Assembly: GCA_900315675.1 (NCBI GenBank)
Contig: OMZY01000006.1
Coordinates: 62,001 to 126,000 of the forward strand
DNA length: 64,000 nt
Source of the DNA: an uncultured Eubacteriales bacterium
GTDB lineage: Bacteria > Bacillota > Clostridia > Christensenellales > Aristaeellaceae
Direction: 5' to 3'
Part shown: one piece after another, positions 7,044 through 22,172 of the stretch
How positions within the stretch are numbered: position 1 is the stretch's first letter
Layout: every line of letters begins with the position of its first letter
Made by a program: the position numbers and the translations under genes
The notes under the pieces: model-generated
Told to the model about the DNA's origin: nothing
What the model saw: the letters and a program-made list of their open reading frames with translations, nothing else
Database searches by the model: none

Positions 7044-7781
7044 TCACTCAACCTCCTTTTTCACACCCAGCGGGTACTGGGGAATCATGTTGGCTTCCAC
7101 CCACTTCAGCGCCTCCTGAGGCGTCATACCCCAGTTGGTGGGGCAGGCGGACAGCACTTCCACCAGGGAGAAGCCCTTGCCGGCGATCTGCATTTCGAAC
7201 GCCTTCTTGATGGCCTTCTTGGCTTCCATGATGTGCTTTACGTCATGCACGGACACCCGGGAGATGTAGGCCGGACCGTCCAGGGTCGCCAGCATTTCGC
7301 TGACCCGGATCGGATAACCGCACAGCTTGGGATCCCGGCCGTAGGGAGAGGTGGTGGTCACCTGACCCGGCAGGGTGGTGGGGGCCATCTGGCCGCCGGT
7401 CATGCCGTAAATGGCATTGTTCACAAAGATAACGGTGATGTTCTCGCCCCGGGTCGCCGCATGGGTGATTTCCGCCGCGCCGATGGATGCCAGGTCGCCG
7501 TCGCCCTGATAGGTGAACACGATGTTGTTCGGATTCACCCGCTTGCAGCCGGTGGCTACAGCCGGTGCGCGGCCGTGGGCCGCTTCCATCATGTCGCAGT
7601 TGAAATAGTCATAGGCAAACACGGCGCAGCCGACCGGCGCAATGCCGATGGTTTTGCCCTGGATGCCCAGTTCGTCAATGGCTTCCGCCACCAGGCGGTG
7701 GATGATACCGTGGGTGCAGCCGGGACAATAATGCAGCGGCTTGTCGGTCAGCAGCTTTGTCTTCTCATACACAACAGCCAT
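7044..7781 (-). CDS. 2-oxoacid:ferredoxin oxidoreductase, beta (TPP-binding) subunit
   Basis: The 245-residue protein is the thiamine-diphosphate-binding beta subunit: [18 protein letters not shown] near residue 17, [15 protein letters not shown], and the TPP/Mg motif [14 protein letters not shown] followed by [19 protein letters not shown]. It decarboxylates the 2-oxoacid on TPP and passes electrons to iron-sulfur centres. Only one CxxC is present at the N-terminus, as usual for short beta subunits whose clusters are supplied by the separate delta ferredoxin. Two bases separate it from the alpha subunit. Substrate, by resemblance of the alpha subunit, is probably branched-chain 2-oxoacid. 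Confidence 0.93.
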
Positions 7782-7783
7782 GC

Positions 7784-8860
7784 TTATTTCCCCTCCTTGG
7801 CAAGATTTTCAACCTGGGTAATGATTTCCCGCACCGTCGGCACAATACCGCCGGTGCGGCCGAAGAAGTGCACGGGCTTTTTGCCGTCCACCGCCAGCTT
7901 CACGTCGTCCACCATCTGACCCATGCTCATTTCCACGGTCAGGAAGGCCTTGGCGTGTTCAGCCGCCTTGGCGATGGGCGCGTTCGGGAAGGGCCACAGG
8001 GTAATGGGACGGATCAGGCCGGCCTTGATGCCTTCGTCACGCAGTTTGCGCATGGCGCTGCGGGCAATACGGGCGGTGGTGCCGTAGGCCACGATCACAT
8101 AGTCCGCGTCCTCGGTCATCTCCTCCTGCCAGCGGCATTCGGTCTGTTCCATCACGGCGTACTTGGCGTACAGCTTGTTCACATGCTTTTCCAGCACGGC
8201 GGGATCGATGTACAGTGAGTTGATGATCGCCCGTTCCCGGCCGCAGTCCGGCGTCCAGCCGGTGGCCGCCCAGGTCTTCTCGGGCAGGTCTGTCCGCTCC
8301 TTGCGTTCCGGCATTTCCACGGGTTCCATCATCTGGCCGATCAGACCGTCGCCCATGATCAGCACGGGATTGCGGTACTTGTCCGCCAGGTCGAAGGCTT
8401 CCTGTGTCAGTTCCACTGCTTCCTGCACGGAAGAGGGAGCCAGCACCAGCATCCGGTAGTCGCCGTGTCCGCCGCCGCGGGTGGACTGATAATAGTCGCT
8501 CTGGGCAGGCTGGATGGATCCCAGTCCGGGGCCGCCGCGCACCATATTCACGATCACGCAGGGCAGTTCCGCGCCCACAATATAGCTGATGCCTTCCTGC
8601 TTCAGGGAAATTCCCGGGCTGGAGGAAGAGGTCATAACCCTCGCTCCGGCACCGGCCGCGCCGTAGACCATATTGATGGCGGCAACTTCGCTCTCCGCCT
8701 GCAGGAAACAGCCGCCCTCAATCTTCGGCAGCCGTTTGGACATGTATTCCGGGATCTGGTTCTGAGGGGTAATGGGATAGCCGAAGAAGAAGCGGCATCC
8801 TGCCTGGATCGCAGCTTCGGCGATGGCTTCATTTCCCTTCATGAGCATTTTTTCACCCAT
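7784..8860 (-). CDS. vorB: 2-oxoacid:ferredoxin oxidoreductase alpha subunit, VorB-like
   Basis: This 358-residue alpha subunit has the full N-terminal signature [17 protein letters not shown] and [16 protein letters not shown], then [33 protein letters not shown] and [15 protein letters not shown]. This pattern is the one annotated as 2-ketoisovalerate (3-methyl-2-oxobutanoate) ferredoxin oxidoreductase VorB in anaerobes. The substrate could also be 2-oxoglutarate or another 2-oxoacid; sequence alone does not settle it. The enzyme generates reduced ferredoxin, which is the expected electron donor for the Rnf complex encoded 7 kb away. Confidence 0.92.
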
Positions 8861-10358: not shown

Positions 10359-11177
10359 TTAAGCATAGCTGTGGATTCCCGGCAGGAATGTATTTACACC
10401 GATATAGGTAAAAATCACGCAGATAAACCCGATGACCGCAAACCAGGCCGCGGCCTTTCCCTTCCATCCCCGGCGCAGCCGCAGATGAAGGTAAACCGCA
10501 TAGATAATCCATGTTACCAGCGACCAGGTTTCCTTCGGATCCCAGGACCAGTAGCTTCCCCAGGCCTGTTCAGCCCAGATCGCGCCGGTCAGAATTGTGA
10601 GCGTCAGGAACAGCATGCCCAGGCACACGCTGCGATAGCTGATCATATCAAGCTTTTCCGGCTGTGGAATGTGCTGCCCCCAGAAGCCTTCCTCCTTTAT
10701 CCTTCCCCGGAAAAGGAAGATCAGGGAAAGGACGAAAGCAACCCCGAAAGATCCGTACGCGATGATCGCTGTGGAAACATGAAAAGCCAGCCAGCTGGAA
10801 CGCAGTGAAGGCATCAGTTCCTTCACTTCCCTGCTCTGCATGGCCGCATAGCCGATCATCAGCAGGATCAGCGGCGAAGAAAACGCGCCCAGCACCGGAA
10901 AACGGTATTTCCGGATAAAGATCAGGCTGACCAGGCACAGCGCCCAGGCAAAACTGGTGGCAAACTCATACTGGTTCGTCATCGGCCAGCGTCCCGCGCC
11001 GATTCCCCGGAGCACCAGAGCTGCCGTATGCAGTATAAACAACCCGGTCTGCAGGAAAAACGCCGCAGAAGAAAGCTTTTCCTTTTTCAGTGCCACAAAG
11101 GCAAAGTTCAGGACTGTCAGCACAAAATATCCTATCACTGCGATGGTAAAAAGCGTGTTTTCTGCCTGAAGCATCAA
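10359..11177 (-). CDS. ccsA: Cytochrome c biogenesis protein ResC/CcsA (heme exporter/ligation subunit)
   Basis: This 272-residue polytopic membrane protein belongs to the CcmC/CcsA/ResC heme-handling family. The diagnostic WWD-type segment reads WGSYWSWDPKETWSLVTW (about 207-224). Histidines flank it (FHVSTAIIAYG and the C-terminal region). With ResB it moves heme outside and attaches it to CxxCH/CxxCK motifs of c-type cytochromes (System II). The gene overlaps resB by four bases (ATGA), so the two are translationally coupled. The obvious client is the pentaheme NrfA domain encoded immediately upstream in the same direction. Confidence 0.93.
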   Translation of the reverse strand: MMLQAENTLFTIAVIGYFVLTVLNFAFVALKKEKLSSAAFFLQTGLFILHTAALVLRGIGAGRWPMTNQYEFATSFAWALCLVSLIFIRKYRFPVLGAFSSPLILLMIGYAAMQSREVKELMPSLRSSWLAFHVSTAIIAYGSFGVAFVLSLIFLFRGRIKEEGFWGQHIPQPEKLDMISYRSVCLGMLFLTLTILTGAIWAEQAWGSYWSWDPKETWSLVTWIIYAVYLHLRLRRGWKGKAAAWFAVIGFICVIFTYIGVNTFLPGIHSYA

Positions 11178-12478
11178 TCATTCCCTCCCTTTTCCGTATC
11201 TGCCGCTGTAAAGCCTGTCGCAGCGGCAGCCTTGCCGAACTCATCCCGGAACAGGGCTCCGCCTTTCCGGTTCATTCCGTAAACATGCCAGCCGTTATCC
11301 TCTCTGACTGCCCACACAGCGCGGGGCTGCACCCAGAAGGCCAGGACAAGTCCGGCAAGCGTAATCAGCCCTCCCAGCAGTACCAGAAAAGTGAAACGGT
11401 CCCGCTTGACTGCCAGCAGCGTATAATTCCGGGGATGATCAAAACGCACCGTATATTCATCGATGGTCACTTCTTCTCCGGACATCAGGGCATTCATGCC
11501 CAGGAGTTCCCCCTTGTAGTAAATCCTGTACAGATAGGCCGGATTGTTCAGTTCTTCAGAAGCTGTCATTGGGCTCATTCCCGTCATCTGAACATAATCC
11601 GGATAAAAAGCCTGGAGGTAAACCACCAGTTCCTGTTTGTCCTTTACCGGAATATACTCTCCTGCACACAGGGAATCCTTCTGGAGCACCTCTCCATTCT
11701 TCAGTACTGTTACGTCAGCGCCCCAGCCGACCGAATTCTGGAAGAATTTATAGCCGAAAAGCGCGGCAGGAGCGTTCACGCTGGCAGTTCCGCTTTCAAC
11801 GGTATGGTTTTCCGGGTCTGAGACAGTCAGCATGGCTGTATACTGCTGAACAGCCCCGCTTTCCGCACGTTCAGTCCGGAAATCGTCCACCCTGACTGTC
11901 AGGCCTGTATTTTCAAGCGGTTTTGTCTGCCCTGGCAGCGCATATACCGTATATTTTTCCGCGGTCATCTGTCCCAGCGCAAAGCCGAGGATCAGAAGCA
12001 GAATACCCATATGGCAGATCCACGCGCCCCAGAAGCCGGCTCTGTTTCCCGCGGAAAAAAGCATTTCCCGGCCGTCGCCGGTTTTTCTGCCCGCCGGTTT
12101 TCCCATCCGCAGTGCAGTGAACATCTGCTGCGGATCTCCTGTTCCCTGTGCTTCCGCGGTAGCGTTAGCGGAAATCATTTTCTCAGGATTCCCAAATGCC
12201 CTGACTCTCTTCAGCAGCGAAGGCAGCCGGATCAGGTTGCAGCAGAGCAGGTTCAGGCACAGAAAAGCACTCAGCCCGATAAACCACCAGCTGTGGAAAG
12301 CGTCATCCAGCTGCAGGCCTACAATCCATCCTGCGGTCCGCTCCCCGTATTGTACGGCATACTGCTCCCAGGTTGCTCCCTGCGGGATTGCCGAGCTCAT
12401 GGCACAGGCAGCCGCCAGCAGTACCAGCAGTGTAATGGCAAAGGGCATGGATGAGAGAAACTTTCCGATTCTTTTCAT
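11174..12478 (-). CDS. resB: Cytochrome c biogenesis protein ResB
   Basis: The 434-residue protein has the ResB/Ccs1 layout: an N-terminal membrane helix (ITLLVLLAAACAMSS), WWFIGLSAFLCLNLLCCN as second helix, a third at ICHMGILLLILGFALG (about 157-172), a large extracytoplasmic beta-rich domain with GYKFFQNSVGW, and a last helix near LVLLGGLITLAGLVLAFW. ResB pairs with ResC/CcsA in System II heme ligation. The longer in-frame start at 12550 runs through an intergenic hairpin, so ATG 12478 (MKRIGKFL) is chosen. It follows the nrfA fusion gene by 81 bases and overlaps ccsA. Confidence 0.93.
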   Translation of the reverse strand: MKRIGKFLSSMPFAITLLVLLAAACAMSSAIPQGATWEQYAVQYGERTAGWIVGLQLDDAFHSWWFIGLSAFLCLNLLCCNLIRLPSLLKRVRAFGNPEKMISANATAEAQGTGDPQQMFTALRMGKPAGRKTGDGREMLFSAGNRAGFWGAWICHMGILLLILGFALGQMTAEKYTVYALPGQTKPLENTGLTVRVDDFRTERAESGAVQQYTAMLTVSDPENHTVESGTASVNAPAALFGYKFFQNSVGWGADVTVLKNGEVLQKDSLCAGEYIPVKDKQELVVYLQAFYPDYVQMTGMSPMTASEELNNPAYLYRIYYKGELLGMNALMSGEEVTIDEYTVRFDHPRNYTLLAVKRDRFTFLVLLGGLITLAGLVLAFWVQPRAVWAVREDNGWHVYGMNRKGGALFRDEFGKAAAATGFTAADTEKGGND

Positions 12479-12501
12479 TTTCAAACGATCCCATACACAA
12501 G

Positions 12502-12534
12502 GGAGACCGCGGATGCATTCCGTCCGCGGTCTCC
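12502..12534 (-). promoter_or_regulatory. Perfect 12-bp intercistronic hairpin between the nrfA fusion and resB
   Basis: GGAGACCGCGGA pairs perfectly with TCCGCGGTCTCC around a nine-base loop. No T-run follows on the minus strand, so this is not a standard terminator. It may limit read-through into resB/ccsA or protect the upstream message from exonucleases. Confidence 0.6.
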
Positions 12535-12559
12535 GTAATGTTTCACCCACATTGGGATA

Positions 12560-15500
12560 TCATTTCCCGTTTATTTTGTCAAGAATTTCCGTCATGGCCT
12601 CCTGAACCGAGCCGGCGGAGAAGGTCAGCGTAGCACCTGTAATGGCATCCGGAGCGGCACTGCCGCTTTCCAGGATAGCCTTGCCCCATTCATCGCGAAT
12701 CGCGTCGGTCAGCAGGTCTTTGCCCTCTTCCCCTTCGGAAGTGATCTTCACATCGGTCAGGGTTCCGTTCTTCGCGTACGCGACAACCGTCACCTTGCTG
12801 AAGGCGTTCTCTTTTTCAGCCCGGTAGCCTGCATAAAGCGGCGGTTTTTTCGGAGTTTCCTCTTCCGTCGCGGCAGGAGCAGATCCGGTTACGTCGGATT
12901 GGCCGGCAGAAGCAAGCAGCTCCTTTGCTTCGTTGATTTTGGATTCCGAAGTATCCAGGCAGTTATATGCCAGCGCGGAATTATGAGCACCTTCCGAATT
13001 CTCCACATAGCAGAAATCGAAGAACCACTGGGCTTCCCGATGCAGTTTCCGCACCGCGTCCAGTTCTTCCCCGCTCATTCTGCCGGCGGCAACTGCCGCC
13101 GCCAGTTCATCCTTCAGTCCGGACAGCATGTTGCCCACTTCTGTTTCCCTGGCCGTCACTTTTACCTGGATACCCTTCACCAGTGTGATCGTATTGTCTG
13201 CACTGCCGTGGCATGCAGCACATTTCGCCAGCAGGGTTTCGTTTTCCAGGGGACTGACCAGGTGGTGGTCATGATACTGAATGCCGCTTTCCGTCGCTTC
13301 AACCGGCATATGGCAGTCCGCGCAGCTCAGCATGGCCGCATGCTTGCCGTAAGCCCAGGTTTCCAGTTCCGGATGCTGCGCCTTGAGCATCTTCGTTCCG
13401 GTGCCGGGCTGCTCCCAGTCATAGAAGCCCAGGGCATCGTAGTATGCCAGGATCGCCTCGGGAGTCATCTCGGCTTTGCTGTGATAAGGCATCATGGCTT
13501 CACTGTCTTCCGGCGTGAAGTAATACTCAATATGGCACTGGCCGCAGGACAGGGACGCTGCCATGATTTCGCTGACATTCTCTCCCAGCGCTTCATTCAC
13601 ATACTGATGGGTCACAACCATTTTCCCGCCGTTCCCGTCATCTGCTCCGTGGCAGGTGTAGCAGGTAATGGCGTTGGTTGTCTGCGCCATCATTTCTTCA
13701 AAGGGCATGGAATAAACGCTGACGCCCTGTTCCGCAATCAGCTTATGTATATCCGGCGTCTTGCAGGTCAGGCAGTTGGCCTTGGGATGCGGCCTCTGGG
13801 TTTTCTGCACATCTTCCAGTGTGTAGGCATGACTCCTGGCACTGCCGTAGTCCTTGGCAAAGCCGTATCCTTCATAAATATTAACCAGATAAGGATCCTG
13901 CTCCAGGTAGTCTGTCACATAGCTGTTCTCCTTTTCTTTCCCCATGGAGACAGCGATTGCTGACAGGATGTCGTTTCCGTTTCCGGACGTCTTTTCCGCG
14001 GCAGGTTCTTCAGCCGCGGGTTCCTCTGCGGGAGCTGCTGCGGTCTCTCCGTTCATCCGGGCCAGGATTTCTTCCATGGCTTCCTGCACGGATCCTGCGG
14101 AGAACTTCAGGGTTGCGCCGGTAATAGCGTCCGGCGTTGCGCTGCCGCTTTCCAGGATAGCCTTGGCCCATTCGTTCCGGATTTCATCGGTCAGCAGGTC
14201 GTTGTTGCCTTCGCCCTCGGACAGGATTTTCACGCTGTCCAGCTTGCCGTTCTTCGCGGAAGCGATAACCGTGATTTTGCTGAAATTGTTCTCTGCAACC
14301 GCGCGGTAGGCCGCGGATGCGGGAACCTTGCGTGCAGGCGCTTCCGCAGCTGCGGGAGCTTCCGTTGCGGCGGGAGCTTCTGCAGCTGCGGGTTCCTCAG
14401 CGTGAGCTTCCGCTCTCTCACCCTTCATTTCAGCCAGGATTTCCGTCATGGCTTCCGTCACGGACGCGGCGGAGAACTTCAGCGTCGCGCCGGTCACAGC
14501 GTCGGGAGCAGCGCTTCCGCTTTCCAGGATCGCTTTCGCCCATTCGTTCCGGATCTCATCGGTCAGCAGGTCTTTGCCTTCCTCCCCTTCGGAAGCAATC
14601 TTCACGTCGGTCAGGGTGCCGTTCTTGGCAGAGGCGGTCACCGTGACCTTACTGAAGTCATTTTCCTTCGTTACCCGGTAGACCGCGTAGGCCTGTCCGT
14701 CCGCACCGGCTTCCTGCTTTGTTTCCGGCTGTTCTGCGGGAGTCTCCGTTTTTTCCTCTGCGGGAGCTTCAGCCGGTTCTTCGGCCTTTTCCGTTTCAGC
14801 GGGGGCATCAGCGCCCGCTGCCTTGTTGATCGCCTTCAGGGCAGCTTCGGAGGTAATCGTCGCGCCGGTCAGCGCTTCAATGCCGTTTTCCCCGTAAGTG
14901 AAGGGGCCGCTCTTGCCGATGAACTGACTGGTGAACGCTTCCTCGGAAGCCCGCTGGCCCAGGCCGGCGGTTTCATTGGGTGTATCAATGGTCAGCGTCT
15001 GGATCTTGTCTCCGTCCAGGGTCACATGCACTGTCACGTCACCGCCGAAGCCCTGTTCGGAAACTGTCAGGGCGTTTTCTTCCGCTGCGGGGGCTTCCGC
15101 TTCCTTCGCCGGTTCTTCCGCCTTTTCCGGTTCAGCGGGGGCTTCAGCGCCCGCTGCCTTGTTGATCGCCTTCAGGGCGGCTTCGGAGGTAATCGTCGCG
15201 CCGGTCAGCGCTTCAATGCCGTTTTCTCCGTAAGTGAAGGGGCCACTCTTGCCGATGAACTGACTGGTAAACGCTTCCTCGGAAGCCCGCTGGCCCAGGC
15301 CGGCGGTCTCGTTCGGGGTATCAATCGTCAGAGCACTGAGCTTGTCGCCGTCCATCGTCACATGCACCGTCACGTCGCCGCCGAATCCCTGCTCGGAGGC
15401 CGTCATGGCAGCTTCATCCTTCGCGGCGGCGGAAATATCGCCTGCGGGAGCTTCCGCTGTTTCAGCGGCAGGTTCTTCTGCGGCGGGAGCTTCAGCCGTC

Positions 15501-15931
15501 TCCGGTTCTGCGGGAGTTTCAGCGCCGATGGCCTTGTTGATGGCCTTTAGGGCGGCGGTGGAGGTCACCGTCGCGCCGGACAGGGCTTCAATCCCGTTCT
15601 CGCCGAAGGTGAAGGGACCGCTCTTGCCGATGAACTGATCGGTGAATTCCGCGTCAGAAGCCCGTTTTCCCAGGCCTTCCGTCTCGTTCGGCGTATCAAT
15701 GGTCAGTTCCCGGATTTCATTGTTATCCAGGGTCACATGCGCCGTTATCTCACCGCCGAAGCCCTGTTCGGAAGCTTCTGCGGAGGCTGCGGCAGATCCG
15801 TTCGCAGCAGAAGGATCGTATACCAGTGATCCGGTGCCGCTGAAAACGCCGGTCATTGCCAGGACAATCACGCCCACCAGCACCGCGCAGACCGCGATCC
15901 GGATCCATTGTTTCTTCGCAAAATAATCCAT
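12560..15931 (-). CDS. nrfA: Membrane-anchored fusion of six RnfG-like FMN-binding domains with pentaheme nitrite reductase NrfA
   Basis: The 1123-residue protein has one N-terminal membrane helix (about 10-30) and no lipobox. Three RnfG-like FMN_bind domains follow, with flavinylation motifs SGATVT (118-123), TGATIT (243-248) and TGATIT (356-361). Two related domains end in TGATLK (480-485, 604-609). The NrfA domain (about 650-1005) comes next, then a sixth FMN domain with TGATLT (1098-1103). The heme motifs are CLTCK (720-724, active site), CYTCH, CGQCH, CADCH and CAACH (904-908). ARSHAY (699), IEYYF (802) and KAQHPE (850-855) carry the active-site Arg, Tyr, His and calcium ligands known from Wolinella NrfA. 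Ala/Pro/Glu-rich linkers join the domains. NrfA reduces nitrite to ammonium with six electrons outside the membrane. There is no nrfH. ATG 15931 has GAGGAAG upstream; ATG 15964 lies beside a repeat without a ribosome site. Confidence 0.93.
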   Translation of the reverse strand: MDYFAKKQWIRIAVCAVLVGVIVLAMTGVFSGTGSLVYDPSAANGSAAASAEASEQGFGGEITAHVTLDNNEIRELTIDTPNETEGLGKRASDAEFTDQFIGKSGPFTFGENGIEALSGATVTSTAALKAINKAIGAETPAEPETAEAPAAEEPAAETAEAPAGDISAAAKDEAAMTASEQGFGGDVTVHVTMDGDKLSALTIDTPNETAGLGQRASEEAFTSQFIGKSGPFTYGENGIEALTGATITSEAALKAINKAAGAEAPAEPEKAEEPAKEAEAPAAEENALTVSEQGFGGDVTVHVTLDGDKIQTLTIDTPNETAGLGQRASEEAFTSQFIGKSGPFTYGENGIEALTGATITSEAALKAINKAAGADAPAETEKAEEPAEAPAEEKTETPAEQPETKQEAGADGQAYAVYRVTKENDFSKVTVTASAKNGTLTDVKIASEGEEGKDLLTDEIRNEWAKAILESGSAAPDAVTGATLKFSAASVTEAMTEILAEMKGERAEAHAEEPAAAEAPAATEAPAAAEAPARKVPASAAYRAVAENNFSKITVIASAKNGKLDSVKILSEGEGNNDLLTDEIRNEWAKAILESGSATPDAITGATLKFSAGSVQEAMEEILARMNGETAAAPAEEPAAEEPAAEKTSGNGNDILSAIAVSMGKEKENSYVTDYLEQDPYLVNIYEGYGFAKDYGSARSHAYTLEDVQKTQRPHPKANCLTCKTPDIHKLIAEQGVSVYSMPFEEMMAQTTNAITCYTCHGADDGNGGKMVVTHQYVNEALGENVSEIMAASLSCGQCHIEYYFTPEDSEAMMPYHSKAEMTPEAILAYYDALGFYDWEQPGTGTKMLKAQHPELETWAYGKHAAMLSCADCHMPVEATESGIQYHDHHLVSPLENETLLAKCAACHGSADNTITLVKGIQVKVTARETEVGNMLSGLKDELAAAVAAGRMSGEELDAVRKLHREAQWFFDFCYVENSEGAHNSALAYNCLDTSESKINEAKELLASAGQSDVTGSAPAATEEETPKKPPLYAGYRAEKENAFSKVTVVAYAKNGTLTDVKITSEGEEGKDLLTDAIRDEWGKAILESGSAAPDAITGATLTFSAGSVQEAMTEILDKINGK

Positions 15932-15961: not shown

Positions 15962-15985
15962 CATTCTGAATGATGAATGATGAAT
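15962..15985. repeat. Heptamer tandem repeat, site 2 (between rnfB and the nrfA fusion)
   Basis: On the minus strand it reads AATTCAT-CATTCAT-CATTCAG, three 7-base units of the same family as at 9.2 kb. It fills most of the rnfB-nrfA gap inside the operon. Confidence 0.75.
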
Positions 15986-15989
15986 TAAC

Positions 15990-16784
15990 TTACATCGGAG
16001 TGGTCATAATGACCTTGGCAGGGCACTTCTCCGCGCACTTGCCGCAGAGCGTGCACTTTTCCGGATCGATCCGGGCCAGCGTGCCGTCAAACACAATCGC
16101 GTCAGATTCACACTGTTTGACGCACAGGCCGCAGCCGATACAGCCGGCGGAACAGACCTTCCGGACCAGCGGTCCCTTGTCCCTGTTGGAGCACTGCACG
16201 CGGATGATCCGGCTTTCCGGAATCAGGGAGATCAGTCCCCTCGGGCAGGTCTTCGCGCACAGGCCGCAGCTGACACAGCGGTTCCGGTTCACCACGGCAA
16301 CGCCGTCCCGGATGGAGATTGCCTGTTCCGGGCATACCTCGGCGCAGGAGCCGAAGCCCAGACAGCCGTAGGTGCAGTCCGTAATGTTCATACCGGAAAG
16401 TACAGCCGTCCGGCAGTCCTTGATTCCGATATAGTTGCCCTGGTTCTTTGTCACGCCGCAATTGCCCTTGCAGGCTACGAACGCAACCTTGCGTTCCATG
16501 GCTCCGGCGGTGATTCCCATGATGTCGCCGATATCCTGCGCCACAGGAGCGCCGCCCACCGGGCAGGCATTCACCGGAGCTTCGCCCCGGGCGATGGCGC
16601 CGGCCAGCGCGTCACATCCTGCATAGCCGCAGGCGCCGCAGTTGTTGCCGGGGAGCTTTTCCCGCACAGCCACTTCCCGCTCGTCCACTTCCACAGCGAA
16701 CTTCTTGCCGGTGAAAACCAGGCCTGCGCCGACGCAGACGCCGATCACTGCAATAACCAGGGTCGTGATCAGAATAATATTCAT
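15990..16784 (-). CDS. rnfB: Rnf electron transport complex subunit B (ferredoxin-facing Fe-S protein)
   Basis: The 264-residue RnfB has an N-terminal membrane helix (IILITTLVIAVIGVCVGAGLV), a four-Cys Fe-S domain starting NNCGACGYAGCDALAGAI with ACPVGG, a Cys-rich middle (CKGNCGV, DCTYGCLGFGSC) and repeated C-x2-C-x2-C-x3-C-P ferredoxin motifs (CVSCGLCAKTCP, CIGCGLCVKQCE, CTLCGKCAEKCP). RnfB is the entry point for electrons from reduced ferredoxin. ATG 16784 has AGGAGGGCGG just upstream. It follows rnfA by 15 bases. Confidence 0.97.
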   Translation of the reverse strand: MNIILITTLVIAVIGVCVGAGLVFTGKKFAVEVDEREVAVREKLPGNNCGACGYAGCDALAGAIARGEAPVNACPVGGAPVAQDIGDIMGITAGAMERKVAFVACKGNCGVTKNQGNYIGIKDCRTAVLSGMNITDCTYGCLGFGSCAEVCPEQAISIRDGVAVVNRNRCVSCGLCAKTCPRGLISLIPESRIIRVQCSNRDKGPLVRKVCSAGCIGCGLCVKQCESDAIVFDGTLARIDPEKCTLCGKCAEKCPAKVIMTTPM

Positions 16785-16799: not shown

Positions 16800-17384
16800 T
16801 TACAGCACCAGGCCGCCGAAGCCCATAAACGCGATGGACATCAGCGCGGCAGCGATCATGACAATGGGTGCGCCCCGCAGCGGCGCGGGCAGGTCCTTTT
16901 CATTGATCCGGGACCGGATACCCGCCAGAAGCACAATGGCAATGGTGTAGCCCACCGCCGTGCCGAAGCCGCTGGTCACGCACTGGATGAAATTATAGCC
17001 GTCCTGCACGTTGGTCAGAGCCACGCCCAGCACCGCGCAGTTGGTGGTGATCAGGGGAAGATAGATGCCCAGGGCCTTATAGACCGCCGGGGACTTTTTC
17101 TTCAGGAACATTTCAACGATCTGCACCAGGGCCGCAATGACCAGGATGAAGATGATCGTCTTCATGAATTCCATGCCCAGGGGCTTGAGAACGTAGTCAT
17201 ACAGCAGGCTGGCCACCGCGGAGGCGATCGTGATCACGAAGATCACCGCGCCGCCCAGGCTGATGGAGGCCTTCATCTGTTTGCTGACGCCCAGGAAGGA
17301 ACAGATGCCCAGGAACTGGTTCAGCACCACATTGTGCACCAGCGCGCTGGTCACAATGATCATGATCAGACTCGTGTTATTCAT
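16800..17384 (-). CDS. rnfA: Rnf electron transport complex subunit A (membrane)
   Basis: The 194-residue protein with about six membrane helices matches RnfA/NqrE: VHNVVLNQFLGICSFLGVS near residues 17-35 and ITTNCAVLGVALTNVQDGYNF near 113-133. The conserved Cys residues in these two helices bind the intramembrane [2Fe-2S] cluster shared with RnfE. Length is normal. The start overlaps rnfE by four bases (ATGA). Confidence 0.97.
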   Translation of the reverse strand: MNNTSLIMIIVTSALVHNVVLNQFLGICSFLGVSKQMKASISLGGAVIFVITIASAVASLLYDYVLKPLGMEFMKTIIFILVIAALVQIVEMFLKKKSPAVYKALGIYLPLITTNCAVLGVALTNVQDGYNFIQCVTSGFGTAVGYTIAIVLLAGIRSRINEKDLPAPLRGAPIVMIAAALMSIAFMGFGGLVL

Positions 17385-18091
17385 GCGTCAGCGCCTCCCT
17401 TCTGTTCTTCTTCCGCTTTCGGATCAGCGTCCCGCGTATCACAGGCCGTGCTGCACATTGCGCAGTTGCCGTCGCAGCCGCTTTCCACCAGCTTGCGCTG
17501 ACGGGTCTTGATGCCGACGGCGTTCATCACGGCGATGATCAGGGCGAAGACCAGGAAAGCTCCCGGAGGCTGGATGAATATGGTCATGCCGAAGCTTTCC
17601 GGCAGCAGACGGAATCCGAAGACCGTTCCGGCGCCGAGGAGCTCACGGATCATGCCCGCCAGGGTCAGGGCCACGGTAAAGCCCAGGCCCATGCCGATGC
17701 CGTCCAGCACGGACAGCAGCGGAGTATGCTTGTTGGCGTAGGCTTCCGCCCGGCCGAGGATGATGCAGTTCACCACGATCAGCGGGATATAGATGCCCAG
17801 CGCCTCATACAGGCTGGGAATATAGGCTTCGATCAGCAGTTCCGTCACCGTCACCAGGCTGGCGACGATCACAATGTAGGCGGGCAGCCGGACCTGGTCT
17901 GGGATCACCTTGCGCAGGCAGCTAATCACAAAGTTGCTCAGTACCAGCACCGCCAGGGTGCTCAGGCCCATGCCGATACCGTTGGATGCCTGGGTGGATA
18001 CCGCCAGCGCCGGGCACATGCCCAGCATCAGCACCAGTACCGGGTTTTCCTTAATCAGGCCGTTCCAGAGGCGTTCAATATACTTTTTCAT
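17381..18091 (-). CDS. rnfE: Rnf electron transport complex subunit E with C-terminal Cys cluster
   Basis: The 236-residue protein is RnfE/NqrD: KENPVLVLMLGMCPALAVSTQ near the N-terminus and YIPLIVVNCIILGRAEAYANK in the middle, both with the conserved Cys that share an intramembrane [2Fe-2S] with RnfA. After the last helix a soluble tail carries CDGNCAMCSTAC (C-x3-C-x2-C-x3-C, about 206-217), then an acidic end. The tail is on the cytoplasmic side in the usual RnfE topology and could bind a further metal centre; that is inference. It lies two bases after rnfD::rnfG. Confidence 0.96.
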   Translation of the reverse strand: MKKYIERLWNGLIKENPVLVLMLGMCPALAVSTQASNGIGMGLSTLAVLVLSNFVISCLRKVIPDQVRLPAYIVIVASLVTVTELLIEAYIPSLYEALGIYIPLIVVNCIILGRAEAYANKHTPLLSVLDGIGMGLGFTVALTLAGMIRELLGAGTVFGFRLLPESFGMTIFIQPPGAFLVFALIIAVMNAVGIKTRQRKLVESGCDGNCAMCSTACDTRDADPKAEEEQKGGADA

Positions 18092-18093
18092 GA

Positions 18094-19653
18094 TCAGTTG
18101 CCTCCTTTCAGCACAGTCTCATAGAAGTCCAGGCCGGCATTCAGGGCGTTGGTCACCGCGGTGGAAGTCACCGTAGCGCCGGTAATGGCGCTGATCTGGT
18201 CTTCTCCCGCGTCGCCCTTCACCAGGCTGACGCTGCCGCTCTTGCCCGGGAACTGGTCCTTGAAGGCGTCTTCATCCGCCCGCATGCCCAGGCCTGCGGT
18301 TTCGTTCAGCTCCGTGAAGGCGATTTTGCTGACCTTGCCGTCCGGCGTCAGGCCGAGGGCCATGGTCACGTCGCCGCCGAAGCCCTTGGAGGAAACGCTC
18401 AGGGCGTATCCGGCCAGATTCCCGGAGGCGTCTTTGCCGACGAACGCTTCGTTGATCCGGGTCGCGCCGAAGTCCGTGCCCCAGTTCGCGCCGCTCAGCT
18501 CTTCCAGCTTTGCCTTGGCAGTGTCGGAAATTTCAAAGGTTTCCGCTTCGGGGCACACTTCCTTGTAGGAAGCAGCTTCCGCCAGCAGTTTCTGTTCTTC
18601 GATGGTGTCCTTGGTCATGGAATATACGCCGCTGAGGGCCACGCCCGCGATAGCGGCGATCAGGGTCAGGGCAATCACAGGACGCGGGATCCGGAAGGGT
18701 TCCTTGCGGGTCTTGCGGGTTTTGCCGATCATCTTCCGGTAGGCAAAGGGCTTCTGGACGATATAGGTATCGATCAGCGGAGAGCACACATTGCCGATGA
18801 TGATCGCATAGCTGAAGGAGTCAGCGGTATTGCCCTTCAGGCGGAACAGTCCGCCCAGAATACCGATCAGGCAGCCGTAGATAAATTGGCCGAGGCGGCT
18901 GACGGGGCTGGTCACATAGTCCGTTGCCATGAAGAAGGCGCCCATCACCACACCGCCGCCGCACAGATGTGCCAGCAGGTAGGCGGGATCAAAACCCTTG
19001 CCTCCGAACAGTCCCAGGAACACAGTGAAGCCGATCAGCACGGAGAAGCAGATCTGGCCGTGGATGATATCCATGCTCCACAGCAGCAGGCCGCCGGCCA
19101 GCAGCGCCAGGATGGAGCTGCCGATGACGCCGTCCGCCGTGCCCAGGAACATCCTGGTGATGTCAACCGCTTCGCCGGCTTTCATGGCGCCCACAGGCGT
19201 CGCCGTCGCCACGGCGTCCACCAGCGGCTTGATCGCCATCGCGTTGGCAAAGGAGATCAACAGGAAGCAGCGTGCCGCCAGGGCGGGGTTGATGAAGTTC
19301 TTGCCCAGTCCGCCGAAGCAGCCCTTGCAGACCACAATGGCAAACACGGAACCGATCACCGGGATGTACAGAGGCGTCTGCGGTCCCAGGGACAGGGCAA
19401 GAAGAAGACCGGTCACCACCGCGCTGCCGTCCCAGATCGTGCTCGGTTTTTTGCAGACCTTGCAGAAAAGCCATTCGGAAGCCACTGCGGCAACAATTGC
19501 CAGGGCAACAATACCGAAGGCGTTCCAGCCATATACCAGGATACCCACAATCGTAGCAGGCAGCAGGCTCAGGGTGACCATCCGCATGATGAACGGGGTC
19601 GTCCATTTATCCCTTGCATGAGGAGCCGCGGAAAGATTCAGCGTCGTATTCAC
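18094..19653 (-). CDS. rnfD: Rnf complex RnfD-RnfG fusion protein
   Basis: A 519-residue fusion. Residues about 1-310 are RnfD: polytopic, with INPALAARCF and the flavinylation segment MATDYVTSP (242-250; Thr 248 is the expected FMN acceptor). Residues about 325-519 are RnfG: a membrane helix (VIALTLIAAIAGVALSGVY), an extracytoplasmic domain with SKGFGGDVTMALGL and ETAGLGMRADEDAF, and the flavinylation motif TGATVT (491-496). No separate rnfG is present, so the fusion supplies both flavin carriers on the outer side. RnfD and RnfG are normally modified with FMN by ApbE, which is not in this window. The start overlaps rnfC by four bases. Confidence 0.95.
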   Translation of the reverse strand: MNTTLNLSAAPHARDKWTTPFIMRMVTLSLLPATIVGILVYGWNAFGIVALAIVAAVASEWLFCKVCKKPSTIWDGSAVVTGLLLALSLGPQTPLYIPVIGSVFAIVVCKGCFGGLGKNFINPALAARCFLLISFANAMAIKPLVDAVATATPVGAMKAGEAVDITRMFLGTADGVIGSSILALLAGGLLLWSMDIIHGQICFSVLIGFTVFLGLFGGKGFDPAYLLAHLCGGGVVMGAFFMATDYVTSPVSRLGQFIYGCLIGILGGLFRLKGNTADSFSYAIIIGNVCSPLIDTYIVQKPFAYRKMIGKTRKTRKEPFRIPRPVIALTLIAAIAGVALSGVYSMTKDTIEEQKLLAEAASYKEVCPEAETFEISDTAKAKLEELSGANWGTDFGATRINEAFVGKDASGNLAGYALSVSSKGFGGDVTMALGLTPDGKVSKIAFTELNETAGLGMRADEDAFKDQFPGKSGSVSLVKGDAGEDQISAITGATVTSTAVTNALNAGLDFYETVLKGGN

Positions 19654-20999
19654 TTCTGAGCGCCTCCTTCCCGTTTTCTTTTCTCAAGGATTTCCGCCTT
19701 CGCCTGCTTGAAGGTAGGCGTCAGGGGCCGTTTGGCCGGACAGGCGAAGCTGCAGCTGCCGCACTGGATGCAGTCCATGCCGTACAGCTTCTTCTCATAC
19801 CGTTCCAGGTCGCCGGCGATTGCCGCGTCCGCCATCAGCTGGGGCGTCAGGCCCATGGGACATACTGTGGTGCAGCGTCCGCAGCGCAGGCAGCTGGTCA
19901 TCACGGTTTCCGCCTCTTCCACCGGGTCTGTGGCCAGCAGGGTCAGGCCGTTGTTCTGCTTCTGGATCGGAATATCCAGGGAGCCGATGGCGATGCCCAT
20001 CATCGGACCGCCGGAAAGTGCCTTGCGGATCTCCAGGCCTTCCTTCACGCCGCCGGCTGCCTCCAGCAGTTCCGCGTAGCTGGTGCCCACCCGGACCATA
20101 TAGTTTCCGGGTTCGGTAACCGCCTCACCGGTAATGGTGAAGCACTGGCTGAACAGCGGTTCCCCGTAGAGCACAGCCCGCTGGATCGCGTAAAGCGTAC
20201 CTACGTTCTGCACCACGCAGCCCACGTCAGCCGGCAGTTTACTGGTGGGGAAATCCACGCCCGCCACCGCCTGGATCAGGCTGCGCTCGCCGCCCTGGGG
20301 ATACTTGGTAATCATGGCCCTCACGCTGATTTTCGGCTTGTCCGATACCGCGATGCTCATGGCTTCGATGGCTTCGGGCTTGTTATCCTCGATGCAGATC
20401 ACGCCCTCCGCGTTCGGGAAAAGCCGCAGCACCAGCTCCAGGCCCTCCGCGATTTCATTGGAATGAATCCGCATCAGCTGATCATTGCAGGTCAGGTAGG
20501 GTTCGCACTCCGCACCGTTGGCGATCACATATTCGATCGCGTCCGGATTCTTCGGCTGGAGCTTCACAGCAGTCGGGAAACCCGCGCCCCCCAGACCGAC
20601 GATACCGGCTTTCTGTACCCGTTCGATGATGTCGCTGTTGGAAAGCGTGGAAGGCTCCGTCCGCTGGGAATAATCCTCTGCAGGCGTGAACAGGCCGTCA
20701 TTGTCGATGACAATGCACTCCGCCATACCACCGCCCAGAACCCGGCGCTTTTCAATTGCCTTGACCTTACCCGAACAGCTGGAATGAATCGGTGCGGAAA
20801 CAAAGCCGTCCGCTTCCGCCAGCAGCTGTCCCACCTTCACCTCATCATTCTTTTTGACCACCGGTTTCGCGGGTTTTCCAATGTGCATGGAAAGCGGGAA
20901 AACCATCTCTCCCTTCGGATCGAAGAGACGCAGACGGCTTTCCCTGCTCAGGTCCTTGTGGCCTGCGGGATGTACGCCGCCGCGAAATGTGTTTTTCAC
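19650..20999 (-). CDS. rnfC: Rnf electron transport complex subunit C
   Basis: The 449-residue protein begins FRGGVHPAGHKDLS, has the flavin/NAD-binding GLGGAGFPTAVKL segment and ANGAECEPYLTCN, and ends with two [4Fe-4S] motifs, CLRCGRCTTVCPMGL and CIQCGSCSFACPAKRPL. RnfC is the peripheral cytoplasmic subunit that normally exchanges electrons with NAD(H). The start is unclear: GTG 20999 is in frame 11 bases after AAAGGAG and gives the usual short N-terminus; ATG 21020 adds seven residues but has no ribosome site. This is the first gene of the rnf-nrfA-res run. Confidence 0.95.
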   Translation of the reverse strand: MKNTFRGGVHPAGHKDLSRESRLRLFDPKGEMVFPLSMHIGKPAKPVVKKNDEVKVGQLLAEADGFVSAPIHSSCSGKVKAIEKRRVLGGGMAECIVIDNDGLFTPAEDYSQRTEPSTLSNSDIIERVQKAGIVGLGGAGFPTAVKLQPKNPDAIEYVIANGAECEPYLTCNDQLMRIHSNEIAEGLELVLRLFPNAEGVICIEDNKPEAIEAMSIAVSDKPKISVRAMITKYPQGGERSLIQAVAGVDFPTSKLPADVGCVVQNVGTLYAIQRAVLYGEPLFSQCFTITGEAVTEPGNYMVRVGTSYAELLEAAGGVKEGLEIRKALSGGPMMGIAIGSLDIPIQKQNNGLTLLATDPVEEAETVMTSCLRCGRCTTVCPMGLTPQLMADAAIAGDLERYEKKLYGMDCIQCGSCSFACPAKRPLTPTFKQAKAEILEKRKREGGAQK

Positions 21000-21110
21000 T
21001 GCAACGCCGACTCCTTTCATTATGTGTTTTCATATATCCGCAAACGAGCGGGCTTGACTGCCTGCTTCGTAATGGGCTTCAGGGGTTTTGTATTCTTTTT
21101 TTCGTACTGA

Positions 21111-22172
21111 TTATTTTACCAGATTGTCGTTGTCCTGTAAAGCGTAGGCTCGTTTCCACACACGGCCTGCAGCCAGTCCCATCCACAGGCAGGCCAGTCC
21201 CGCGAGCAGGTGGCAGACGTCCGCCGGCCAGGACTGGATCAGGGTGATCTTCTTCTCAAAGGCGGCAAACTCCATCGCCACCACCACCAGCACAGCCGGA
21301 ATCACCTGGGCAAAGCAGCGGAGCGCTTCCCTGCCCCGTTCCTCCTTCGCCAGCCGCTTCAGGCACAGGATGATGACCGTCACCAGCGCCGCCGCGCAGA
21401 TCACCTGGTTGGCCCGGACAAATCCCAGCCACGGCAGATGCAGCACCTCGCCGCGCAGCATGGCCTCCAGTACAATCTGTCCGCAGGAATACAGGATCAC
21501 GAACAGCACCGTCCGGCCGCCGGCCGCAGCCCGGCACCGGGAGGTGATCCAGGCCGTCATGCAGGCCCACAGCGCCTCGGGCACAAAGATGGCCCAGCAC
21601 CATTCGTCATAGAAATTCTGCACCGCGAAGGGCAGCCGTTCAAAGAAACTGTAGTCCTCCAGCGCAAAGAGACTGAAGCGGTTGGCGTATTCCGCCTCCT
21701 CCGGATCCAGCCAGTCGGTGCTGAACCAGTCTGAAAGCGGGAAACCGATTCCCTGCTCCTTAAAGATCAGGCCGCAGATAATCCGGCCGGCCACGATCAG
21801 CAGGCAGGCGCCCACCACCGCGGAGTCCATGATCCGGGACCCCGGCTGCTTCGTGATTTTGCCCGTCAGCCATGCCGCCAGCATACCGCCGCCCAGCGCG
21901 CCCCACAGCAGGAAGCCGCCTTCGTTCACCCGGAATATCATCCCGAAGCCTTCGTTGCCCAGAATTTCGTCAATCATAAACAGGCAGAAGCCCAGCCGCG
22001 CCAGTGCAAAGCAAAGCGGAACCGCCAGCAGGGCAAACCAGCCGGCGGTTTCCTTTTTCAGTCCTGCCTTCCCCATGCTCCGGGCTGCCAGCAGCAGCGC
22101 GCCCAGCGCCGGAAGAATCATCAGCAGGCCGAAGGGGTAGATGGTCAGAAAACCCAGTTTGATCGGTTCCAT
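21111..22172 (-). CDS. Lgt-like polytopic membrane protein, module 1
   Basis: The 353-residue protein has about nine hydrophobic segments and resembles the fold of prolipoprotein diacylglyceryl transferase: NEGGFLLWGALGGGMLAAWLTG and MDSAVVGACLLIVAGRIICG align with the HGGLIGG and GRIGN regions of Lgt. The catalytic histidine of Lgt is replaced (LLWGAL) and GRIGN is changed to GRIIC, so ordinary Lgt activity is doubtful. It starts three bases after a secreted phosphodiester glycosidase gene, exactly as its paralogue at 39757-40695 does, so the pair is likely a functional unit. Substrate unknown. Confidence 0.6.
   Translation of the reverse strand: MEPIKLGFLTIYPFGLLMILPALGALLLAARSMGKAGLKKETAGWFALLAVPLCFALARLGFCLFMIDEILGNEGFGMIFRVNEGGFLLWGALGGGMLAAWLTGKITKQPGSRIMDSAVVGACLLIVAGRIICGLIFKEQGIGFPLSDWFSTDWLDPEEAEYANRFSLFALEDYSFFERLPFAVQNFYDEWCWAIFVPEALWACMTAWITSRCRAAAGGRTVLFVILYSCGQIVLEAMLRGEVLHLPWLGFVRANQVICAAALVTVIILCLKRLAKEERGREALRCFAQVIPAVLVVVAMEFAAFEKKITLIQSWPADVCHLLAGLACLWMGLAAGRVWKRAYALQDNDNLVK

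Follow-up and report, generated by a model that had tools for sequence, protein, structure and literature searches.

A multi-FMN-domain NrfA encoded beside an rnf gene set in an uncultured Christensenellales bacterium

Architecture of the fusion protein

The analysed window, 64,000 nucleotides of contig OMZY01000006.1 (assembly GCA_900315675.1, positions 62,001 to 126,000) from an uncultured Eubacteriales bacterium of the Aristaeellaceae (Clostridia; Christensenellales), carries on its minus strand a gene (12560..15931) in which six flavin mononucleotide (FMN)-binding domains, here called beads, are fused to a pentaheme nitrite reductase, NrfA. The frame runs from 15931 down to 12560 and encodes 1123 residues plus a stop codon, with 0 internal stops. 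Its ATG at 15931 is preceded by a purine-rich Shine-Dalgarno-like stretch, and an alternative in-frame ATG lies at 15964. Frame, Pfam matches and motifs concur with the layout read by an initial annotation: a membrane helix is followed by three RnfG-like and two variant FMN domains, then by a complete NrfA and one last FMN domain, in the order TM-a-a-a-b-b-NrfA-b (TM, transmembrane helix; a and b, bead types). The N-terminal hydrophobic helix (15839..15901, minus strand; residues about 11-31), preceded by positive residues, is a probable uncleaved membrane anchor, a topology drawn from the sequence and from a helix in a poor fold model; no lipobox was seen by eye at the protein's N-terminus. 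The whole-protein domain search suggested by the annotation matches both families it named, Cytochrom_C552 (PF02335, E=1.8e-77, residues 668-1040) and FMN_bind (PF04205, E=1.9e-49), and these E-values exclude a chance origin of the matches. Interdomain linkers are 28-44 residues long and consist to 58-86% of A/E/P/T/K.

The NrfA domain (12908..13939, minus strand; residues 665-1008) contains one CxxCK and four CxxCH heme motifs (CLTCK 720, CYTCH 757, CGQCH 796, CADCH 870 and CAACH 904) together with the active-site segments ARSHAY (698), EYYF (802) and KAQHPE (850). It scores 261.7 bits against the curated Cytochrom_C552 cut-off of 24.1, and its best solved-structure sequence matches are the NrfAs of Shewanella (E 1.5e-49), E. 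coli (1.1e-42) and Wolinella (4.9e-39). A fold search with the NrfA part of the full-length model concurs; that model has a mean predicted local distance difference test (pLDDT) value of 55.6 and a predicted template modelling score of 0.37. Alignment with E. coli NrfA (1gu6) reveals retention of the ARSHAY Arg, the CxxCK Lys, EYYF and KAQHPE, segments that we take to hold the catalytic Arg/Tyr/His and the calcium-site Gln/Lys/Glu. Two aligned structure entries are titled Q263E and H264N mutants, both positions falling within KAQHPE. R699, K724, Y804, Q852 and H853 are invariant in 22/22 rows of alignment A1, composed of the window protein and 21 relatives. The NrfA domain is, judged by its sequence, complete and a distant member of the family. 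Scores under the NCBIfam NrfA models PRK11125 (213.2 bits, cut-off 595) and TIGR03152 (175 bits, cut-off 692.5) lie below the cut-offs; to judge by their names, these models probably represent the E. coli-type formate-dependent enzyme. The heme pattern K,H,H,H,H recurs in 76/80 NrfA frames of loci L001-L080, the four exceptions being a tandem NrfA, a frame with an additional CxxCK and two frames truncated at contig ends. The in-group locus L062 (12394-14844, plus strand) encodes a tandem double NrfA of 817 residues that has two PF02335 stretches and ten heme motifs, two of them CxxCK.

Three beads of the a type occupy the N-terminal part of the protein, all encoded on the minus strand: D1 (15509..15772; SGAT, RnfG-like, 54.2 bits), D2 (15146..15379; TGAT, 47.0 bits) and D3 (14810..15043; TGAT, 49.7 bits), with 94% protein identity between D2 and D3. 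The variant b type, also on the minus strand, comprises D4 (14411..14677; 22.5 bits) and D5 (14039..14305; 20.5 bits, under the 22-bit cut-off, and 76% identical to D4), followed by D6 (12563..12823; 27.0 bits), C-terminal to NrfA; all three carry TGAT. The six [ST]GAT flavin-attachment motifs fall at residues 118, 243, 355, 480, 604 and 1098. The b domains share 74-79% identity with one another, 26-36% with the a domains, and score near or under the Pfam FMN_bind cut-off. A fold model of D4 (pLDDT 75.8) has as its top three solved Foldseek matches two chains of 3o6u and 8p2b (probability 1.00 each, E 2e-3 to 3e-2, none attaining E 0.001), indicating that D4-D6 are FMN_bind domains despite their weak scores. 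Entry 8p2b is domain 1 of CbFMN4, with which CPE2226 (3o6u) is compared as an FMN-free relative (PMC10339131).

The attachment site is conserved across the b type. In a set of 47 non-redundant b domains, 41 of which were aligned, the attachment position is Thr/Ser and position -3 is Asp in 41/41, though identity to D4 drops to 21%; both residues are also present in 6/6 of the domains left out of the alignment. Because these residues are kept throughout, the site appears to be under selection. A motif count had suggested site loss in b domains of relatives, a reading discarded when alignment showed SGVT, TGAS and similar versions. Among a-type beads in NrfA frames, 27/28 carry [ST]GAT and one SHAT. 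By its sequence the fusion is a putative multi-flavinylated protein, having at least two FMN_bind domains with an [ST]GA[TS]-type site, D5 being under the Pfam cut-off. In a domain tree of 87 columns, with long-branch warnings and weak deep forks, the a beads group with RnfG in one set (39 rows; Shimodaira-Hasegawa-like approximate likelihood ratio test, SH-aLRT, 95) to which other FMN domains, the window genome's among them, do not belong, and RnfG forms a set of its own (SH-aLRT 96). The a-type beads look like RnfG kin in this tree. Of 34 b-labelled beads, 31 group with the separate b bead of locus L163 (99), and three from FAD_binding_2 fusions fall among other FMN domains.

The operon and the surrounding genome

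The fusion gene lies in a minus-strand array with the order rnfC, rnfDG, rnfE, rnfA, rnfB, fusion gene, ccs1, ccsA. The first gene, rnfC (19650..21020; TIGR01945, E 3.5e-148), is followed by an rnfD-rnfG frame (18094..19653) matching TIGR01946 above its cut-off over residues 10-303 and TIGR01947 over residues 327-512 (90.6 bits, cut-off 102). Next come rnfE (17381..18091; TIGR01948, E 1e-72), rnfA (16800..17384; TIGR01943, E 3.6e-75) and, directly upstream of the fusion gene, rnfB (15990..16784; TIGR01944, 95.2 bits, cut-off 68.7). Junctions among rnfC, rnfDG, rnfE and rnfA are 4-nt overlaps or 2-nt gaps, and 58 nt separate the end of rnfB from the fusion start codon. The fusion protein itself scores 88.6 bits with the RnfG model TIGR01947; interpretation of the whole protein as RnfG was rejected on account of this score, under the cut-off of 102, and of the separate RnfG domain in the operon. 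RnfD and RnfG form a single gene in the window and, by a frame-spanning match, in 60 of loci L002-L080, with L039 nearly so; the remaining loci, some of them short contigs, gave no such spanning match.

Downstream of the fusion gene lie two genes for a system II c-heme lyase, both on the minus strand: a ResB/Ccs1-like subunit (ccs1, 11174..12550; PF05140, E 3.1e-49), whose true start, to judge by the sequence, is probably near 12481, and a CcsA/ResC-type subunit (ccsA, 10359..11177; TIGR03144, E 2e-77, above cut-off; CcsB in NCBIfam naming). A strong hairpin (12502..12534; minus strand, listed on the plus strand) separates the fusion gene from ccs1, the 66-nt stretch folding at -31.8 kcal/mol (z -4.5); it might have a part in processing the mRNA or in expressing the genes of the operon unequally. 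Upstream of rnfC, a promoter-like site TTTACA-17-TAAAAT (21113..21141, minus strand) is weak: shuffled sequence would give 3.8 such sites by expectation, and 3 were found. Subunits of a 2-oxoacid:ferredoxin oxidoreductase (POR_N, TPP_enzyme_C), a possible source of reduced ferredoxin, are encoded at 7047-8860 on the minus strand, two and three genes beyond ccsA.

The window genome, assembled in 57 contigs (95.7% complete, 3.55% contamination), contains one NrfA, one RnfC over cut-off and one ApbE over cut-off, with a second ApbE match below it. Cytochrom_NNT (PF03264; NrfH/NapC), a usual partner of NrfA and not its defining feature, has 0 matches in this genome. Searches of the same genome for UbiA-family prenyltransferases, which were positive in 14/14 control genomes, and for Molybdopterin-family oxidoreductases also returned 0. 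This leaves RnfG and the beads as the obvious candidates for supplying NrfA with electrons, no quinol route having been detected. Six FMN_bind plus FAD_binding_2 frames are found elsewhere in the genome. The genome's ApbE adjoins an 830-residue FMN_bind/FAD_binding_2 frame with two FMN_bind matches (G000:C48:171892-176316).

Distribution, variants and history

NrfA is present in 33/150 genomes of a family sample, 18/396 of an order sample and 96/398 of a phylum sample (91 of the 96 over cut-off), the three samples overlapping. Within the window's genus, six of the eight listed genomes encode NrfA, all in frames of 984-1153 residues, including one- and two-contig genomes (G500, G132, G091). The named relatives are metagenome-assembled genomes, many with ruminant gut sites in their titles. 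Among 30 phylum-level loci, fetched at 2.7-4.3 kb each, none shows RnfB next to NrfA or an NrfA frame that includes an FMN domain.

The genome search proposed by the initial annotation recovered the same or similar architectures in other assemblies, e.g. L002 and L165. The L165 fusion, from a genome of one 3.39-Mb contig, is 79% identical to the window protein in alignment A1. Among the findings that would overturn it, the annotation had named an assembly error or frameshift uniting separate genes. Such an artefact now has a negligible chance of being the explanation: the same or very similar layouts stand in open frames in other assemblies, including one- and two-contig genomes (L165, L164), and these relatives refute it in all but the exact bead number. 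That exception stems from D2 and D3, which are 91.5% identical over 234 nt of DNA with a longest exact block of 48 nt; because of this near-identity, the copy number may be misassembled and the number of a-type domains in this assembly could be off.

Bead number, type and position vary among the relatives. With N for NrfA, the order a-a-a-b-b-N-b is found in the window, L002 and L165, a-a-a-b-N-b in L164, a-N-a-b-b-b in L005 and L006, a-a-N-a-b-b in L010, N-a-b-b-b in L009, N-a-a-b-b-b in L024 and a-a-a-N in L025; b-only forms occur too. NrfA precedes the beads in L009, L024, L026 and L032, stands among them in L005, L006 and L010, and follows them in L025, L011 and L013. The initial annotation pictured the beads as a built-in electron donor working as a flavin 'wire'. 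The built-in donor is plausible, with attachment sites in all six domains, though the annotation did not mention the neighbouring rnf operon, a pointer to where the electrons ultimately come from. A fixed linear wire is unlikely, because order, number and type vary between relatives while the linkers look flexible, and flexible, interchangeable shuttles are favoured.

Further variants join a second enzyme to the chain. L163 (8767-11718, minus strand), L033 (9944-12913, plus strand) and L042 (728-4411, plus strand) encode FMN_bind, FAD_binding_2 (fumarate-reductase-like) and NrfA in one frame, apparent double reductases; in L163 the beads form a separate gene. Repeats of the YMRPRP/MMRPRP type occur in low-complexity linkers before NrfA (L022, L011, L021) and at the L031 C-terminus. 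Four frames outside the bead clade had been labelled fused by length alone (L028, L058, L031 and L162, the last of 540 residues). Reading from stop to stop had produced overlapping-frame artefacts in L028 and L058, whose real genes encode plain NrfA; in L031 the C-terminal extension, made of repeated MRPRP motifs, is real but includes no FMN domain. A 787-residue frame in G604 likewise resolved to a 448-residue plain NrfA.

A tree of 133 distinct NrfA domains, built by a quick method with SH-aLRT support only, places the bead-fused NrfAs in one clade of 31 rows (SH-aLRT 100). Plain labels of two of its members were rejected: L016 starts at a contig end, and the beads of L023, a fusion broken over frames, lie upstream in other frames. 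L033, with FMN_bind, FAD_binding_2 and NrfA, is a fused form outside this clade. In-group rows were drawn partly by likeness to the window protein; their counts are to be read as 'at least' and their frequencies not as a census. Beadless NrfAs make up 58/90 of the in-group tree rows. Of the distinct in-group loci with 400 nt or more available on the upstream side, 72/81 have rnfB immediately before nrfA, and a Ccs1 homologue lies downstream in 86/88 in-group loci. In the same family, ccs1 is found at 12/12 loci that branch more deeply and rnfB at 0/12 of them. Because the deeper loci have ccs1 and lack rnfB, the simplest evolutionary order would begin with an nrfA-ccs1-ccsA triad, which rnf joined before the beads were added. 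Plain NrfAs have a juxtamembrane segment; a strict pattern for it matches 0/31 bead-clade rows, some cut at contig ends, versus 38/59 other in-group rows; most of the 21 misses among the latter show a variant of the segment by eye. The beads seem to have taken the place of this segment, as if assuming its donor-facing role.

Known systems, proposed electron path and alternatives

The claim of the initial annotation that no enzyme with this layout had been described was too strong. Meheust et al. (eLife 2021, PMC8238504), who report on multi-flavinylated proteins in general, mention in one sentence and a model, Figure 6H, that Christensenellales have RnfGs that are multi-flavinylated and carry a multi-heme cytochrome domain. 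As there, the window has an Rnf gene cluster and a single protein that joins a multi-heme cytochrome domain to several FMN-binding domains; unlike there, where the protein is treated as RnfG, the window's RnfG is a separate domain fused to RnfD. The main text of that paper contains neither the name NrfA nor PF02335, and where it speaks of 'nitrite reductase' it means NirS, found with NapH-like systems. Compared by description, its Christensenellales proteins probably belong to the same family as the window fusion. No Rnf-operon NrfA, and no FMN fusion named NrfA, was found in the consulted portions of the open-licence papers PMC8238504, PMC11334425, PMC10339131, PMC10811737, PMC12780646, PMC10823672, PMC12285233, PMC10716430 and PMC11024163, the sentence of Meheust et al. 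coming nearest. The fusion has probably been glimpsed before, and, as far as the literature searched shows, its NrfA identity, operon logic, history and missing quinol route are added here.

The NrfHA and NrfAB systems of E. coli, Wolinella and Desulfovibrio share with the fusion the pentaheme NrfA fold, the CxxCK active-site heme and the catalytic and calcium-site residues. The fusion differs from them in having FMN domains on both sides of NrfA and Rnf as its proposed donor, and no NrfH was found in the window genome. A PEFAKGK segment near heme 2, linked to NrfB docking in the portion of a 2025 NrfA review consulted (PMC12285233), is shortened and not conserved when the window NrfA is aligned with that of E. 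coli. The consulted portion of the review has 0 occurrences of Rnf or flavin and describes NrfI as the only confirmed system II CxxCK lyase. The window resembles the nrf locus of Wolinella succinogenes in having a system II heme lyase gene beside nrfA; NrfI, needed there for the CxxCK heme (PMC12285233), is a fused CcsAB homologue, unlike Ccs1 and CcsA of the window, two genes with a putative CxxCK role. An archaeal parallel is MmcA of Methanosarcina acetivorans (Nat Commun 2024, PMC11024163), a multiheme c-type cytochrome of an rnf operon that takes electrons from Rnf. As portrayed there, MmcA is, unlike the window NrfA, a heptaheme conduit related to OTR that reduces methanophenazine, AQDS and Fe(III), and it is called absent from bacteria using Rnf between ferredoxin and NAD. 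SaFMN3 and CbFMN4 likewise carry FMN-binding domains in tandem, joined by linkers in which small residues abound, with covalent FMN on Thr known and a midpoint potential of -184 mV for SaFMN3; as described, they differ from the window protein in having no fused catalytic domain (PMC10339131).

We consider the fusion to be, on balance, the terminal reductase of an Rnf-driven, quinone-independent respiratory branch outside the cytosol. Rnf would replace the quinol/NrfH donor, and the FMN domains would act as flexible tethered shuttles and an electron store. Rnf is an ion-pumping complex in which ferredoxin electrons reach the FMN of RnfG outside the membrane. Reduced ferredoxin, or NADH run backwards, would feed the single Rnf complex, and the extracytosolic FMN of RnfG would pass electrons to FMN domains flavinylated by ApbE. 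On the flexible Ala/Glu/Pro-rich linkers of the membrane-anchored fusion, the beads would swing between Rnf and the NrfA core, much as the several lipoyl domains do in pyruvate dehydrogenase E2. Ferredoxin and nitrite potentials bracket the value of the measured multi-FMN protein (-184 mV). Six FMN have a capacity of 12 electrons and the hemes of five, set against a six-electron reaction; the beads could jointly store up to about 12. NrfA would reduce nitrite, or hydroxylamine, to ammonium with six electrons at the lysine-ligated heme, and the adjacent Ccs1/CcsA would attach its hemes, the unusual CxxCK heme among them. The scheme presumes that the flavins are covalently bound, that electrons run in the stated direction, that the substrate and the heme-lyase specificity are as given, and that the path is coupled to ion transport. 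More tentatively, the set may form a quinone-free respiratory complex running from ion-pumping Rnf through RnfG and tethered flavins to NrfA, by which gut Clostridia in which neither NrfH nor quinone synthesis was detected would breathe nitrite, the beads, partly RnfG kin, having evolved as a multi-copy electron store and distributor able to carry a second reductase.

Several observations weigh against the Rnf-driven respiratory branch. Plain NrfA shares the operon and presumably works there with no beads, so beads are not essential to the pairing of Rnf with NrfA. Of the in-group loci, 9/81 are without rnfB directly upstream, a separate bead gene intervenes in L163, the fusion is broken over several frames in L023, and 2/8 listed members of the genus are without NrfA. 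The poor full-length model yields no geometry, and 57 contigs with 3.55% contamination make absences and presences elsewhere in the genome uncertain. The FMN_bind/FAD_binding_2 reductases share the flavin currency, and the beads could serve them too. As an alternative, RnfG might reduce the NrfA hemes directly, with the beads forming a side branch, either a buffer or a hub to FMN_bind/FAD_binding_2 reductases, iron or humics. We regard such a side branch as unlikely. It would account for the plain NrfAs of the same operon, which RnfG presumably reduces directly, for beads distal to NrfA (L009, L024, L026, L032), for the FAD_binding_2 reductase-like domain that L163, L033 and L042 add to the chain, like an electron-sharing platform, and for the six FMN_bind/FAD_binding_2 proteins elsewhere in the genome; however, five of the six window beads lie between anchor and NrfA, and the bead clade is without the juxtamembrane segment of plain NrfAs, as if the beads took its donor-facing role.

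The same electron path might also serve protection against nitrite, nitric oxide, hydroxylamine, sulfite or peroxide, with electron disposal, in place of energy-conserving respiration. NrfA enzymes act on several of these compounds, the rumen of nitrate-fed animals contains nitrite, and no Molybdopterin-family nitrate reductase was detected in the genome search, so nitrite would have to come from outside. Such a protective job appears rather improbable; the gene is tied to an ion-pumping complex and stands beside a heme lyase, an arrangement kept in 72/81 and 86/88 in-group loci. Natural variants (beadless, beads before NrfA, beads after NrfA, second reductase fused) make the role of the beads directly testable.

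If this respiratory branch is real, it would add an instance from bacteria of an external terminal cytochrome reductase driven by Rnf, and multi-flavinylated proteins, which are poorly understood, would gain a concrete substrate and partner. It would also explain conversion of nitrite to ammonium in bacteria with no detectable quinone route. Removal of nitrite in the rumen draws on the same electrons as the formation of methane and keeps nitrite poisoning in check, so the owners of this operon may matter there.

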